Below, one piece after another: positions 15,595-21,333 of a stretch of 56,716 bases of DNA. The number at the start of each line of letters is the position of its first letter. Position 1 is the stretch's first letter. Both the position numbers and the translations under genes were made by a program. Source of the DNA: Bacteroidota bacterium (lineage in GTDB: Bacteria > Bacteroidota > Bacteroidia > Bacteroidales > FEN-979); NCBI GenBank assembly GCA_026391715.1, contig JAPLDO010000167.1, positions 1 through 56,716 on the forward strand, given 5' to 3'. Under the pieces are notes generated by a model. That model made no database searches. It worked only from the letters and a program-made list of their open reading frames with translations, and was not told where the DNA came from.

Positions 15595-16127
15595 ATATGA
15601 CTATCCGCTTGTGTGCCTAATTATTATTTAGCTACTCTGCGGTTCTTTGCGGTTTCTTTGCGTACTTCTGCGGTAAAAAAAGGTTTAACCGCAGAGAACC
15701 GCTGAGTTTTTCCGCAGAGAGCCGCAAAGCTAAAGTTTGTTAACCAAAGCCTTTTGTTCGATGATTCCTTTTCATTCAAAAACTAAATCCATTATGAACC
15801 TCAATAGCACAACCGATTATCTTTTCTGAAATCTCATTTTCTATCATAAATACCTTTTTATAAGGTTTCCTTTATTCAATAATTTGGGGGTTAAAGACAG
15901 GGATTTCTTCCTTTACCGAGTAGCCGGTTACTTCTCATAGCACCTCAAAATAAGAATTAGCCTCTGAAGTAGAATATGAAAAAATATCGCTAACATTGTG
16001 CATCCGCACATTTGCCCTTCCATCGGTTCATCGTGCGCGAAACCTCAGTCTCATGTTATCTAATTTGATGTTACCTGTTTTTATTGGGAGGAAATTAATA
16101 GAGACTTCACAACCAAAACAACAAACC
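15571..16127. other. 557-bp intergenic region with a CTCTGCGG inverted-repeat element
   Basis: No gene is seen. Positions 15628-15734 form an element bounded by TTTAGCT and AGCTAAA. Inside it, CTGCGG-TTCTTTGCGG units on the left are mirrored by CCGCAGAGAACCGC and CCGCAGAGAGCCGCAAAG on the right. A degenerate relative (CTCTGCGTTCCTCTGC...CCGCAGAG) lies near 43830-43862. The rest is AT-rich and should contain the promoter of the large secreted protein that follows. An in-frame extension from 15996 is possible, but the codons before 16128 do not look coding. Confidence 0.6.
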
Positions 16128-19118
16128 ATGAAAAGAAGATTTACCCTGCTATTTGCGCTGATGATTATCAGTATGAGTTTACTTGCCCAGGTTGGCATAA
16201 ATGCCGATGGCAGCGCGCCTAACGCTTCTGCCATTCTGGATGCTAACTCCACAAACAAAGGTTTTTTACCCCCGCGTATGAACACCACCCAGCGTGATGC
16301 TATTGTTTCACCGGCTACCGGTCTGTTAATTTTTAATACCGATTGCAATGATATTCAACTATTCAATGGCGCCGGTTGGGTTCCGGTAGGCAATGCCGGT
16401 ACTGTGGCAACGCCGGGCACAATAAGCGGTAACGCGAACCCGACTATTAATGCCGTCGGAGTTATTTATACAATTGCCGCATTGTCGGGAGCGCTTGGTT
16501 ATACCTGGACGGTTCCGCTTGGTTCTACGATAACCAGCGGACAGGGCACAACCTCAATCACAGTTAATTTCGGGACTGCCAACGGCGCTATTTTCGTTTC
16601 TGCTTACGGAAGTTGCTGGCGAAGTTTAGGGTCGTATCTTGGAATAGCTCTTTTGCCCCCGGCTCTCGCCACAGTAACAACAACAGCCATCAGTAATCTC
16701 GCTGCAACATCCGCAATAAGTGGCGGCAATGTAACATCCGACGGCGGAACATCTGTTACTGCACGCGGAGTTTGCTGGAGTTTAAGCGCAAATCCGACAA
16801 TAGCCGATAGTAAAACAACAGATGGCGCCGGAACAGGCGCTTTTGTAAGTAATCTGACAAATCTTACTCCAAATACCCTTTATTATCTGAAGTCTTATGC
16901 AATAAACAGCGCCGGAACCGGCTACGGCAATCAACTGAATTTTACAACTCCCTGCACTTCTTATGCCACTGTAAGCGTTTCAATAACATCATCGGCAAAC
17001 CCGGTATGTTCCGGAACATCGGTTATCTTTACTGCAAGTCCTGTGAATGGCGGAACAAATCCGTTGTATCAATGGAAGGTAAATGGAATAAATGTTAGCG
17101 GAGCAACAAACGTTACATATAATTACATTCCGGCAAACAGCGATGTTGTCGCCTGCATATTGACTTCCGATGTAGAGTGTGTCACTGGAAATCCTGCAAC
17201 ATCCAACGCAGTGACAATTACAGTGAATCCGATTCTAACTGCAAGCGCATCTATTGTTTGTTCAGCCAATCCCGTCGCTCCGGGTTCATTGGTTAGTTTT
17301 ACTGCAACTGCCGTTAACGGTGGAAGCGCCCCTGCTTACCAATGGCAGGTAAACGGCGTGAACGACGGAACAAACAGCAGCGCTTATTCATATATCCCGA
17401 CAAATGGCGACAATTTAATTTGTACTGTTATATCCAATCTGGCATGTGTAACCGGCAATCCTGCCACTTCAAACACCATAATTATGGTTGTAGATCCGCT
17501 TTATCCTGTTGTTACAACAACTGCGCTGTCCGACATTACTGAAACCACCGCCGTGAGCGGAGGAAATGTAACATCCATCGGAGGTTCACCGGTAACATTT
17601 CGGGGTATTTGCTGGAATACCAGCCCGAATCCAACCATGGCAAATAATTATACAACCAACGGAAATGGCCCCGGATTGTTTGTGAGCAACCTTACCGGAC
17701 TTACAACGAACACCATTTATTATGTGAGGGCTTATGCAGTAAATTCGAGCGGAACGGCTTATGGGAATGAGCTTTCCTTTGTAACGTTACCAACTGTGAC
17801 AACAACCGCCGTTACAAACATTACTCAAACTACTGCAAAAAGCGGGGGAAATATAACTCCTGGCGGCGGAGCGCCCGTTACAGCGAGGGGTGTTTGCTGG
17901 AACACAACCGCAAATCCGACAATTATGGACAGTCATACCGACGACGGAACGGGAACCGGTGTTTTTATAAGCAACATGACTGAGTTAACCGGCAATACTC
18001 TGTACTATGTGAGGGCTTATGCAACAAACTGCTCCGGAACAGTATATGGCAACCAGCAAACATTTACCACTTCGCCGGTTTTAGCCACTGTTGCCACCGA
18101 CCCGGCAATTTATATTACCCTTACCACTGCCACAAGCGGAGGAAATGTAACCGCAACCGGTGGAGCAAACATCACAGACCGAGGCGTTTGTTGGAGCGCC
18201 AGCCCTAATCCTACAACGGCAGACAGTAAGACCATCAATGGAACAGGAACCGGCATGTTTGTAAGCAACCTTATCAGCCTTACTCCAAATACGGTTTATT
18301 TTATCAGAGCTTATGCAACAAACAGCGTTGGAACGGCTTACGGAAATGAAATAACATTTACAACCCTGCTTACTCCGATAATACCTACTGTAACAACAGC
18401 AGCAATCACAAACATAGGACTCACGACCGCAACAAGCGGCGGCAATGTATTATCCGATGGAGGGGCAACGGTTGCTTTCCGCGGCGTGTGCTGGAGCGCC
18501 AGCCCGAATCCGACATTAACAAATAGTTATACAACCGATGGAAACGGCATTGGCGTGTTTGTGAGTAATCTAACTGCCCTCGCCCCGAATACCATTTATT
18601 ATTTACGCGCTTATGCAGTAAACAGCGCCGGGACTTCGTATGGGAATGAGGTGATGTTTAATAATACTTTCTTTATTGGCAATAATTACGGCGGCGGAAA
18701 AATATTTTATATTGATGGCACGGGACAGCATGGGTTGATTTCGGCAACAAGCGACCAGAGCGCCGGCGCTCAGTGGGGCTGTTCGGGATACTCTATTCCG
18801 GGTACCTACTTTTATTTCGGCACAGGACAGGCAAATACTACTGCCATTGTAAATGGATGCAGTACGGCAGGTATCGCTGCACGAATTTGCAGCGACCTTG
18901 TGTTGAACGGTTACAGCGACTGGTTTTTGCCGTCAATGGAGGAGCTGAACCAGATGTTCGCGCAAAGAACAATAATCGGCGGATTTACAAGTTATTATTA
19001 CTGGAGTTCCTCCGCGTACGATGCTGGCTACGCTTGGCGCAAGAACTTCAACGATGGCAGTTACAACGTTGGTAGTAAGAGCGGCACGTCCTATGTGCGT
19101 GCTGTTCGGGCTTTTTAA
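16128..19118 (+). CDS. large secreted repeat protein with C-terminal DUF1566/Lcl-like domain
   Basis: 996 residues from the ATG at 16128, chosen because [21 protein letters not shown] is a good signal peptide. After an N-terminal region with the common Bacteroidota motif [15 protein letters not shown] come two Ig-like domains (about residues 280-460) and five ~95-residue modules (starting near 181, 462, 556, 653 and 753). The modules have the pattern SGGNVTxxGG...RGVCW...NPT...GxFVSNLTxLxxNTxYYxRAYAxNSxGTxYGN. Residues 848-996 form a DUF1566-like C-type-lectin-fold domain ending in YVRAVRAF. The final ~40 codons have the make-up of a DGR variable region. It is probably a surface ligand-binding protein or adhesin. 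Confidence 0.85.
18995..19118 (+). other. candidate DGR variable region (VR)
   Basis: The last ~40 codons of the secreted protein end almost exclusively in C, T or G, while codons just upstream often end in A. Clusters such as TAC GAT GCT GGC TAC, AGT TAC AAC GTT GGT AGT and AGC GGC ACG TCC are what adenine-directed mutagenesis of AAC/AAT runs would give. The constant 3' end (GTGCGTGCTGTTCGGGC) would be the mutagenic-homing end. The host domain is the C-type-lectin-like fold typical of DGR targets. No template repeat or reverse transcriptase lies in this window, so it would be a remote VR. Confidence 0.55.
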
Positions 19119-19159
19119 CAATTTAGCCATTTAACAATTTTTTTTTGTTTTTTTACCCC

Positions 19160-19234
19160 ACCGCGAAGCGGTCGAAATATTTTAATGCCCCCACCCCCCT
19201 GCCCCCCTCCCCAAAAAAGGGAGGGGGGTGGGCG
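19160..19234. other. hairpin and GC-rich inverted repeat downstream of the secreted protein
   Basis: ACCGC-GAA-GCGGT at 19160-19172 is a compact stem-loop about 40 bases after the stop codon. DGR loci often carry a hairpin just after the variable region. It is followed by a C-rich/G-rich inverted repeat at 19187-19234 (CCCTCCCC-AAAAAA-GGGAGGGG core) that could terminate transcription on either strand and resembles the repeat at 36.81-36.97 kb. Confidence 0.5.
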
Positions 19235-19274
19235 TAGCAAAGGTTTTCGGTTTAATATGCAGGAGTCGAATTAG

Positions 19275-20620
19275 CAGGAGAAAGCATTATCGCACGATAT
19301 TTATAAACTATTTTACATTCATTTTCAATTATATACAAAGGAGGATTTTCCAAACGATGCAATAAAAGCAGCTATTTTTAACGCTTTTGCACTCGACAAA
19401 TTTGAACATGGTAAAGATTGTGAGCAAGATGTTTTATTTGCAGATATTTATCCGGATTATAGTCTCCCCATGTTTGCCCGTATGCCTTTACCACAAAAAG
19501 AGGGAGTACCAGGAATATTGACCATACGCGGAATTTGTTGTATTTACCTCACAATATAAACAGCGATGGTTTGCTTATTGGACATAAAATGGTGAATGAC
19601 CGATTGAAAGATATTCGGATAAAATATACCGATTTAGCTCAACATGCCTATATACTGGGTCAAACAGGAACAGGAAAAAGCACTTTACTTTACACTATGG
19701 TAATGGATATGCTCAGGAATGGCAAACATGTAAGTTTGATTGATCCGCATGGCGATCTTTATGACCTGGTTGTGAAAAATCTTCCGACATCATTAAAGTC
19801 CAACACAATTTTTTTCGATCCATCGGGAAATGAAGAGCTGCCGGGAATCAACTTTCTTCAACATGACCCCGCCGACGCCTTCCAAAAATCGTTCCTGCTT
19901 AACGCAATGTATGGGATTATTGATAATCTGTATGACTTGAAACAGACTGGCGGGTCCATTTTCATCAAGTATTTACAGGCTGCCATGAGACTGGTTATGG
20001 AGGCACAGGATTCGTTGCTTGAAGTAATTCGGGTATTTGAAAATAAAGATTACAGAAATGAACTCCTTGAAAAGACAAAGGATGTTGAACTAAAAGCTGA
20101 ATGGAGTGAAATTATATCATCGGGAGGGGACTCAAGTTTTAACAATACTTCTATTTACATTACAAGCAAACTTAACGAGTTCCGTAACAACGTATTTTTA
20201 CGGGAGATTCTTCGCAAGAAAGAGCAACAAATTGATTTCAGCGATATTCTGAATAATGGCAAGAACCTGCTTGTTCGTTTACCGATAGGTAAACTTGGTG
20301 AAAGAGGAGTGAACCTGGTTGGGCAGATTATTTTCAACAAGTTTTTAATGACTGCTTTTGCCCGTGAAAAAATTAGCGTTGATCAGCGACTTGATCATGT
20401 TCTGGTTGTTGATGAGTTTCATAAATTTACAACAGACGCTCTGGGCAAAGTATTTTCGGAAGCGCGAAAATATCATTTGAGCCTTATTGTGGCTAATCAA
20501 ACGTTTTCGCAACTTAATTCTGATCTTCAGCATTTATTATTAGGCAATGTAGGAAGCATGTTGTTTTTCAGACCTGGTATTAATGATGCTACTGTGGTTT
20601 CAAGGTACCTCCCCCATGAT
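19275..20620 (+). pseudogene. conjugation coupling ATPase (TraG/TraD or HerA-like), frameshifted and truncated
   Basis: The family is a DNA-pumping ATPase of type IV secretion or conjugation. The main frame (from 19535) contains Walker A GQTGTGKST, DPHGD, Walker B HVLVVDEFHKF and the sensor-like IVANQTFSQL. Upstream, from about 19275 to 19532, a different frame reads YTKEDFPNDAIKAAIFNAF and ends in VPGILTIRG. The join with LLYLPHNINSDG in the main frame needs a one-base shift near 19533, so one gene has been split. The N-terminus is missing (a stop at 19272-19274), and the C-terminus is lost after FFRPGINDATVVSRYLP near 20617. No other conjugation genes are nearby. Confidence 0.75.
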
Positions 20621-20679
20621 CTGATTTGTACCTTCTGTTTAACGCATATTTCTTTGACGAGAAAAGGAGGTACATTTTC

Positions 20680-21333
20680 ATGCACACACAATCATCCCCT
20701 GTAATCAGGGCGCTATCATTGATTTTATTCGCGGGATTTATTTCAGTAAACAGTTGCTTTGGCGACAACTCTGAATTTGGTATAGAGGACAAAACTCCAA
20801 ATCAACCTGTAACGAAAACTTTGTATTATTACACAAGTATGTACATCCATTACGTTGATTCGATTGTAAATATCCTGAAACAAAATCCACTGATTAAACC
20901 GGGGAAATACGAAGACTTTATTGTGAACGTTTCCAGGATAATACCCAAAAGGTTTAAATATGGGGCGAATGCACAGTTATGGATTGGTATCAGAAGAGAT
21001 CGTCTTGATTGCGACAACACCGCTTACCTGGTGTATGATATCGGGAAAAAGCTGGGATTCGAAGTGTCGGTGGTTGCATTGTATTGCCATGCCATGGTTG
21101 TTGTTGGCAATTATGCTTATGAAACAACCAACAGAACATATTTTCCAAAAAAACAATTTTAAGACCATTATTCGACTATTTACTGGATTACGTCTGATTA
21201 CAAAAAAATTCATGCTTTATTATCACTCGTTGAGTTGGCTGTTTATCTGGAAAGAAAAGGAGAATACAATAAAGCAGACGATTTCAAAAAAATCGGGTCA
21301 AAGTATTTTCCAGATATGAATAATTTCTATTAA
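20680..21333 (+). pseudogene. exported transglutaminase-like protein interrupted by an in-frame stop
   Basis: The ATG at 20680 follows a strong AGGAGGT sequence, rare in this window, and encodes a signal or lipoprotein-like leader (RALSLILFAGFISVNSCFG). The middle has DRLDCDNTAYLVYDIGKKLGF followed by a short loop and YCHAMVVVGNYAYE, an arrangement resembling the Cys/His/Asp core of transglutaminase-like folds; this assignment is tentative. A TAA at 21160-21162 ends the first frame, but the same frame stays open for another 56 codons (IYWITSDYKKIHALLSLVEL...) to a TAA at 21331. One nonsense change or a sequencing error therefore splits the gene. Confidence 0.6.

Follow-up and report, generated by a model that had tools for sequence, protein, structure and literature searches.

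A variable repeat at the 3′ end of a DUF1566-type protein gene of a Bacteroidales genome, probably written in trans by a diversity-generating retroelement

Can the target of a diversity-generating retroelement (DGR) be recognised from the 3′ end of a gene alone, with neither reverse transcriptase (RT) nor template beside it? The question is raised by a gene on contig JAPLDO010000167.1 (C165) of the Bacteroidota assembly GCA_026391715.1 (5.02 Mb in 256 contigs, completeness 98.99%; G000 in the genome comparisons, with C numbers for contigs). The window analysed here is this whole contig, 56,716 bp in length, and the gene codes for a large protein whose last codons had been proposed, from the sequence letters, to be a variable region served by a DGR elsewhere in the genome. 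This original prediction set the limits of the region at 18995-19118, for which a template-like stretch at 18999-19121 has to be substituted. In our judgement that stretch is very probably the variable repeat (VR) of a DGR with its machinery on other contigs, written by a template resembling the template repeat TR2 of contig C169.

The near-absence of A-ending codons from the last ~40 was borne out: none of the last 42 codons before the stop ends in A, compared with 24.5% of the codons upstream. This run is the longest in the gene (the next is 25), and a run of at least 42 was rarely reached in 20,000 within-gene shuffles (p = 0.0025); among the 21 open reading frames (ORFs) of at least 300 aa in the window, target included, the next longest run without an A-ending codon is 26. 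The predicted invariant end, GTGCGTGCTGTTCGGGC, is likewise in place (19095-19111). As anticipated, no RT or template was found on C165: the RVT_1 profile search gave no match there, nor did a search with TR1, the other template of C169, while the TR2 search matched C165 only at the VR itself.

When window positions 18960-19121 were searched against the genome, 16 places were returned, the query itself included, among them C169:1497-1619, which has RVT_1 matches on either side. Over a gapless alignment of 111 bp, window positions 18999-19109 differ from TR2 at 19 of the 40 template adenines and at 7 of the 71 other bases, corresponding to an odds ratio (OR) of 8.3 (p = 1.3e-5). The adenine changes turn AAC/AAT into GGC, TAC, CGC, GAT, AGT, GTT, GGT, AGC or TCC, and GAG into GCG, and all differing VR codons retain C, T or G at the third position. 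The last 18 nt of the alignment are identical, that is, the invariant 3′ end is common to VR and template. Furthermore, the outer parts of the VR (21 + 18 nt) show no difference at any of their 34 non-A positions, the sole such case among 36 rows compared, so that the non-A differences fall in the centre (7/37, versus 0/34 at the ends; p = 0.012). These consist of GCC to GCT, CAG to AAG, CAG to TAC (two differences) and three third-position pyrimidine exchanges in Asn codons; by kind, four are third-position pyrimidine exchanges and three lie within two CAG codons. Because of these mismatch counts, the seven non-A differences included, TR2 has to be regarded as the nearest template, not the exact one. 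The 36 rows are those with at least 60 matching bases; one of them (L132) is the template of genome G054 and not a VR, and the non-A counts of rows with indels (e.g. L128, L133 and C252:20703) are inflated because the placement was ungapped. TR1 was rejected as the template of the window VR, as it aligns over only 73 bp and differs at 12 of 25 adenines and 17 of 48 other bases.

Fifteen other rows of the same genome could be set beside this result. The VR on C135 differs from TR2 at 15/40 adenines and 5/71 other bases, with 4/34 differences at the ends, and C252:21646 has seven non-A mismatches; the remaining 13 have at least 12 each, at least two of them (C169 and C196) being of the TR1 type. 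Diverged paralogues also show some adenine excess, with ORs of 1.3-1.9 (C212, C2, C86 and C142) or 2.1-3.5 (C162, C214 and C136).

TR2 is part of a DGR locus. Both RTs of C169 carry the motifs IGNLTSQ and YVDD, in agreement with the definition of DGR RTs by (I/V/L)GxxxSQ and YxDD (PMC3521204). The RT1 cassette has an Avd gene above the profile cut-off (bAvd, E = 1e-14), and its cis pair VR1/TR1, with 20 adenine mismatches and no others over 183 bp, is a textbook one. The region C169:1-7400 (L022) holds tandem DGR RTs, 56% identical to each other, with two distinct templates; its second avd breaks off early and continues into TR2, and the contig ends 181 bp beyond RT2. On C135, a target with a TR2-like VR is accompanied by an Avd gene above the profile cut-off (bAvd, E = 1.5e-13), and the RVT_1 profile search found no RT on that contig. 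A cassette of the kind found on G054:C250 looks split in this genome between C135 (target and Avd) and C169 (truncated avd, TR2 and RT2). The original prediction of a trans-acting DGR elsewhere is supported in part: DGR-type RTs, Avd, an A-rich near-copy beside an RT and a shared kind of hairpin were all recovered, but an exact template-variable pair was not, since the near-copy still differs at seven non-A positions.

The predicted hairpin ACCGC-GAA-GCGGT was confirmed behind the gene. Folding energy alone does not set it apart (z = -1.29, with 22 of 200 shuffles folding equally well), and its significance rests on the sites at which it recurs. The genome contains the exact pattern ACCGCNNAGCGGTYG twice, once after the window gene and once after VR1 of C169 (one match for the reversed control); a longer form with at most two mismatches has five matches (two for the reversed control), of which three stand behind DUF1566-type ends (window, C169 and C237) and two elsewhere (C155 and C175). 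Of 17 ends with no more than one A-ending codon among their last 37, 8 are followed by a hairpin with a five-bp stem, compared with 2 of the 50 remaining ends (p = 1.3e-4, Fisher test) and none of the 20 other long ORFs of the window (the 21 without the target). This count was made with the motif already seen; it covers 40 of 49 rows from the own genome (nine, with no stop or less than 100 nt downstream, were left out) and 27 ends from relatives, the latter drawn from 48 listed VR-like places, six of which are in the own genome. As to the two hairpins in the group of 50, that on C237 is the same motif and the other is unrelated.

The element also accompanies VRs that are paired with a template. 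ACCGC-GNA-GCGGT stands behind the cis VR in four of five related cassettes (C169, G054:C250, G054:C23 and G013:C29; not G010), and a sister form, ACCGCC-NNN-GGCGGT, follows three VRs on C149 whose non-A positions all agree with their template; behind the fourth VR there, no such hairpin was found. Counting VRs paired with a template, five of seven cassettes have such a hairpin behind at least one VR, and hence it marks many, not all, of the DGR targets here. Stems of the ACCGC type were further seen behind VR-like ends in G027, G054, G002 (two), G013 and G001, and the element is common to DUF1566 and FGE targets. The heptamer d(GCGNAGC) forms a DNA mini-hairpin of unusual stability. For phage BPP-1, a hairpin downstream of the VR is required for efficient homing (PMC3240598).

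Table 1. Features of the target gene in the window and of the DGR locus on contig C169
Feature	Position	Strand	Remarks
Target gene	16128..19118	+	ATG start, 996 aa, coding sequence confirmed
Protein layout	16128..19118	+	Hydrophobic N-terminal leader (by eye), PKD-like and fn3-like segments, C-terminal Lcl_C/DUF1566 domain
N-terminal module	16128..16379	+	84 aa, 65% identical to N-terminus of the C169 DGR cis target (blastp E = 3e-32)
Lcl_C domain (PF07603)	18867..19109	+	Carries the VR; profile match E = 7e-12
VR (proposed)	18999..19121	+	Gapless alignment to TR2 at C169:1497-1619 (-)
Variable codons	19014..19091	+	Of 16 codons that depart from TR2, 13 do so at template adenines, with 19 adenine changes
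Invariant VR 3′ end	19092..19112	+	TATGTGCGTGCTGTTCGGGC..., like an initiation of mutagenic homing site; matches TR2 exactly through GTTCGG (19109)
Hairpin	19160..19172	+	ACCGC-GAA-GCGGT, then CGAAA and T-rich sequence; element shared with other DGR target genes
C169 gene order, first half		-	744-aa target (7376-5142) with VR1, hairpin ACCGCGTAGCGGTCGAAA, 180-aa ORF, TR1, Avd, RT1
C169 gene order, second half		-	Weakly RelE-like ORF (below cut-off), 5′ part of second avd, TR2, RT2
TR2	C169:1619-1509	-	A-rich near-copy of window VR, ~100 bp upstream of RT2
RT2	C169:1405-182	-	IGNLTSQ and YVDD

The domain at the gene end had been predicted to be of the DUF1566 or FGE type; the profile gives Lcl_C, which settles the first and rules out FGE for this protein, FGE-type DGR targets being found elsewhere in the genome. 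The protein also matches HbP1 (PDB 8q4e) in a phmmer search (E = 7e-14), and it reaches the NCBIfam model adhesin_Lcl with 52.8 bits, far under the cut-off of 500. Its top named relative is encoded by an uncultured Bacteroidales metagenome-assembled genome (CAIKNA010000195.1), with residues 1-996 covered piecewise and 58% identity in the best segment. The AlphaFold2 model, built on a five-sequence alignment, has a mean pLDDT of 39, too poor to use, and what is said of the fold is independent of the model. The protein is probably secreted, and it may be displayed on the surface with a C-type-lectin fold in its last domain; we know of no experimental work on it. The contig carries genes of cellular type, e.g. 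for PAD_porph, a tricorn-type protease and a Cys/Met metabolism enzyme. Downstream of the target (19535-20704) lies a HerA/DUF87-type ATPase gene with no evident DGR link. Intergenic repeats of the CGCAGAG/CTCTGCGG type and the CCCC..GGGAGGGG type flank the target gene (15630-15740 and 19190-19240), and similar ones lie close to the target on C135 and to the DGRs of C169, as judged by eye.

In total, the genome has four DGR-type RTs on three contigs (two on C169, one each on C149 and C225), three of them with a clean or nearly clean cis VR. The DGR at C149:195341-204700 (L034, L268, L269) comprises an HRDC protein, an RT (IGNLTSQ and YMDD) and one template, from which three VRs differ by 20, 21 and 23 adenine changes and none at other bases, and the fourth by 22 and 4, respectively; the one target of this DGR that was scanned has a caspase and an FGE domain. 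At C225:48610-50403 (L035, L270), a DGR with an HRDC protein and an RT (IGNLTSQ and YTDD) shows an FGE-like end by eye, 21 adenine and one non-A change over 144 bp between VR and template, and a small ORF that gave no match in a Pfam scan. Both were rejected as the source of the window VR, the C149 target being FGE by profile and the C225 end FGE-like by eye. A further RT, on C92:2186-4183 (L033), is a separate gene directly ahead of Cas1; because of its MGSPTSP motif and this neighbour it was assigned to the CRISPR-associated kind, left out of the DGR count and dismissed as a source.

The genome holds 47 Lcl_C matches, TR1 and TR2 themselves being two of them. Nine remote ends are TR1-like (73-81%), namely those on C196, C237, C90, C140, C232, C251, C218, C180 and C187, and the eight that could be analysed (C218 gave no usable row) all have both adenine and non-A mismatches; they are a second family, possibly of targets that a DGR served formerly. 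For six of the nine (C196, C90, C140, C232, C180 and C187), a contig end is no more than ~500 bp away, as if the assembly had been broken by repeats. Pattern scans of viral contigs gave no match.

Among 100 genomes, the own included, 19 have a VR-like match at E = 1e-5 and eight an RT2-like RT at E = 1e-40. The TR2-type template pattern occurs at 11 places, which fall in 8 of 393 genomes from the order, again with the own included (none for the reversed control), and the codon TAC expected of an exact template is absent from all 11. In another family of the same order, G054:C250 has a VR, hairpin ACCGCGAAGCGGTCGA, avd (bAvd, E = 1.6e-19), a template and an RT in this order; the RT is 73% identical to RT2, template and VR differ at 19 adenines and two other bases over 147 bp, and the contig ends within the target gene. 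G002, G009, G019 and G027 have VR-like ends, with the hairpin behind those in G002 and G027, and no RT2-like RT was found in these four genomes at E = 1e-40.

Taken as a DGR target, the window gene would have been rewritten as follows. RT2 or RT1, with Avd supplied by the RT1 cassette or by C135, would copy a TR2-like RNA and misread template adenines on the way; the mutated cDNA would then replace the VR of the target gene in trans, possibly guided to it by the common 3′ end and the ACCGC-GAA-GCGGT hairpin downstream. This would yield a secreted, repeat-containing protein whose Lcl_C domain presents a randomised binding face. All steps from the RT to homing, including the homing event itself, are inferred. 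The exact template may have been a close variant of TR2 that has since been lost or was not assembled, a view favoured because the seven non-A changes are central and the avd is broken; a recent writing event is favoured because the VR ends and the hairpin are intact.

Several observations weigh against assigning the VR to this DGR. The seven non-A mismatches to TR2 stand against 0/114 in the cis pair VR1/TR1; only 73% of all mismatches face template adenines, just below the 75% used as a DGR criterion (Roux et al. 2021, PMC8144416); and over 144 bp including flanks there are 24 adenine and 15 non-A mismatches. No template that matches the VR better was found in the assembly, and the TR2-type pattern occurs in it at one place. 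Nor is the OR unique, since C252:21646 equals it (19/40 and 7/71), but with 2/34 differences at the ends. Moreover, the avd adjoining TR2 is truncated (bAvd profile positions 6-62 of 107; 24.8 bits, cut-off 40), and no hairpin of this kind follows the clean or nearly clean DGR VRs of C225 and G010.

The target could have been written by a DGR in the past and be frozen now, the RT2 cassette having decayed and ordinary mutation alone acting on it. This would account for the seven non-A mismatches, for which there is precedent in VRs of other DGRs (PMC3521204), for the truncated avd and for the 13 of 15 other rows that have 12 or more such mismatches. Drift should, however, also have affected the outer VR, with its 34 of 34 non-A bases kept, and the 42 codons free of A-ending ones; the central clustering of the changes, the intact hairpin and the intact Avd of the RT1 cassette also speak against this reading, and we rate such a frozen state as a serious contender that falls somewhat short of an even chance. 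The target might instead be active in trans at present, with a second cassette bearing the exact template in the cell and missing from the 256 contigs. Several non-A differences do resemble a variant template (the AAC/AAT exchanges), C169 stops 181 bp past RT2, and in Thiohalocapsa PB-PSB1 diversified targets occur without a perfect genomic template and long reads reveal structural variants with intact RT and template (PMC10907252). With an assembly nearly 99% complete in which no such template was found, and with TAC at 0 of 11 template-type places, a missing cassette is conceivable, though on balance doubtful. That no DGR ever acted here, the similarity to TR2 being the family resemblance of one DUF1566 paralogue among the 47 Lcl_C matches, is very improbable: divergent paralogues do show some excess of adenine-position mismatches, but the OR of the window VR is well above theirs, and neither the A-free third positions, the VR ends identical to TR2, the recurrence of the hairpin behind clean DGR VRs nor the N-terminus held in common with a clean DGR target would be expected. 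More speculatively, DGRs of this lineage might seed a gene family: a cassette, mobile or split, would write variable ends into many surface genes marked by ACCGC-NNA-GCGGT and then leave or decay, and what stays behind would be a fixed set of perhaps twenty diverged binding ends, with the window gene as the TR2-type target written last; we consider this unlikely as it stands.

The window gene is thus very probably a genuine remote target of a mutation system already known, and it has precedents. Its case shows how the 3′ end of a gene can by itself point to a DGR target, which is then traced to machinery on other contigs, and it enlarges the record of remote targets by one, in a genome that has four DGR-type RTs. 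Orphan DGR targets in this group could be looked for simply by means of the hairpin on the target side, though it does not follow every DGR VR, and the question whether remote targets are still diversified or frozen becomes testable.

In the extracts of the literature examined, neither a short-stem hairpin with a three-base loop common to DUF1566 and FGE targets nor a large one-genome set of VR-like ends of differing age was met with, and no absence from print is claimed for either. Among the closest known systems are the Bacteroides uniformis phage DGRs (Bacuni F1, F2 and F4; PMC8143477), with RTs 43-45% identical to RT2; those DGRs are phage-borne, whereas C165 carries genes of cellular type, and neither RT nor template was found there. 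The hairpins published for phage-related DGRs have stems of 7-10 bp and 4-nt GRNA loops 4-34 bp from the VR (PMC3240598), unlike the one described here, with its 5-bp stem and 3-nt loop 38 bp past the end of the similarity to the template. The targets assigned in trans in PB-PSB1 agree with their template at every non-A site (Dore et al. 2024, PMC10907252), whereas the window VR differs at seven. Several DGRs per genome and remote targets are nonetheless common to PB-PSB1 and the present genome, and the target itself is akin, by Pfam Lcl_C and phmmer, to the Lcl/DUF1566 C-terminal domain and to HbP1, respectively. As in BPP-1 (Guo et al. 2011, PMC3240598), the VR occupies the 3′-terminal part of its target gene, closes with an invariant 3′ end and is followed by a downstream hairpin.
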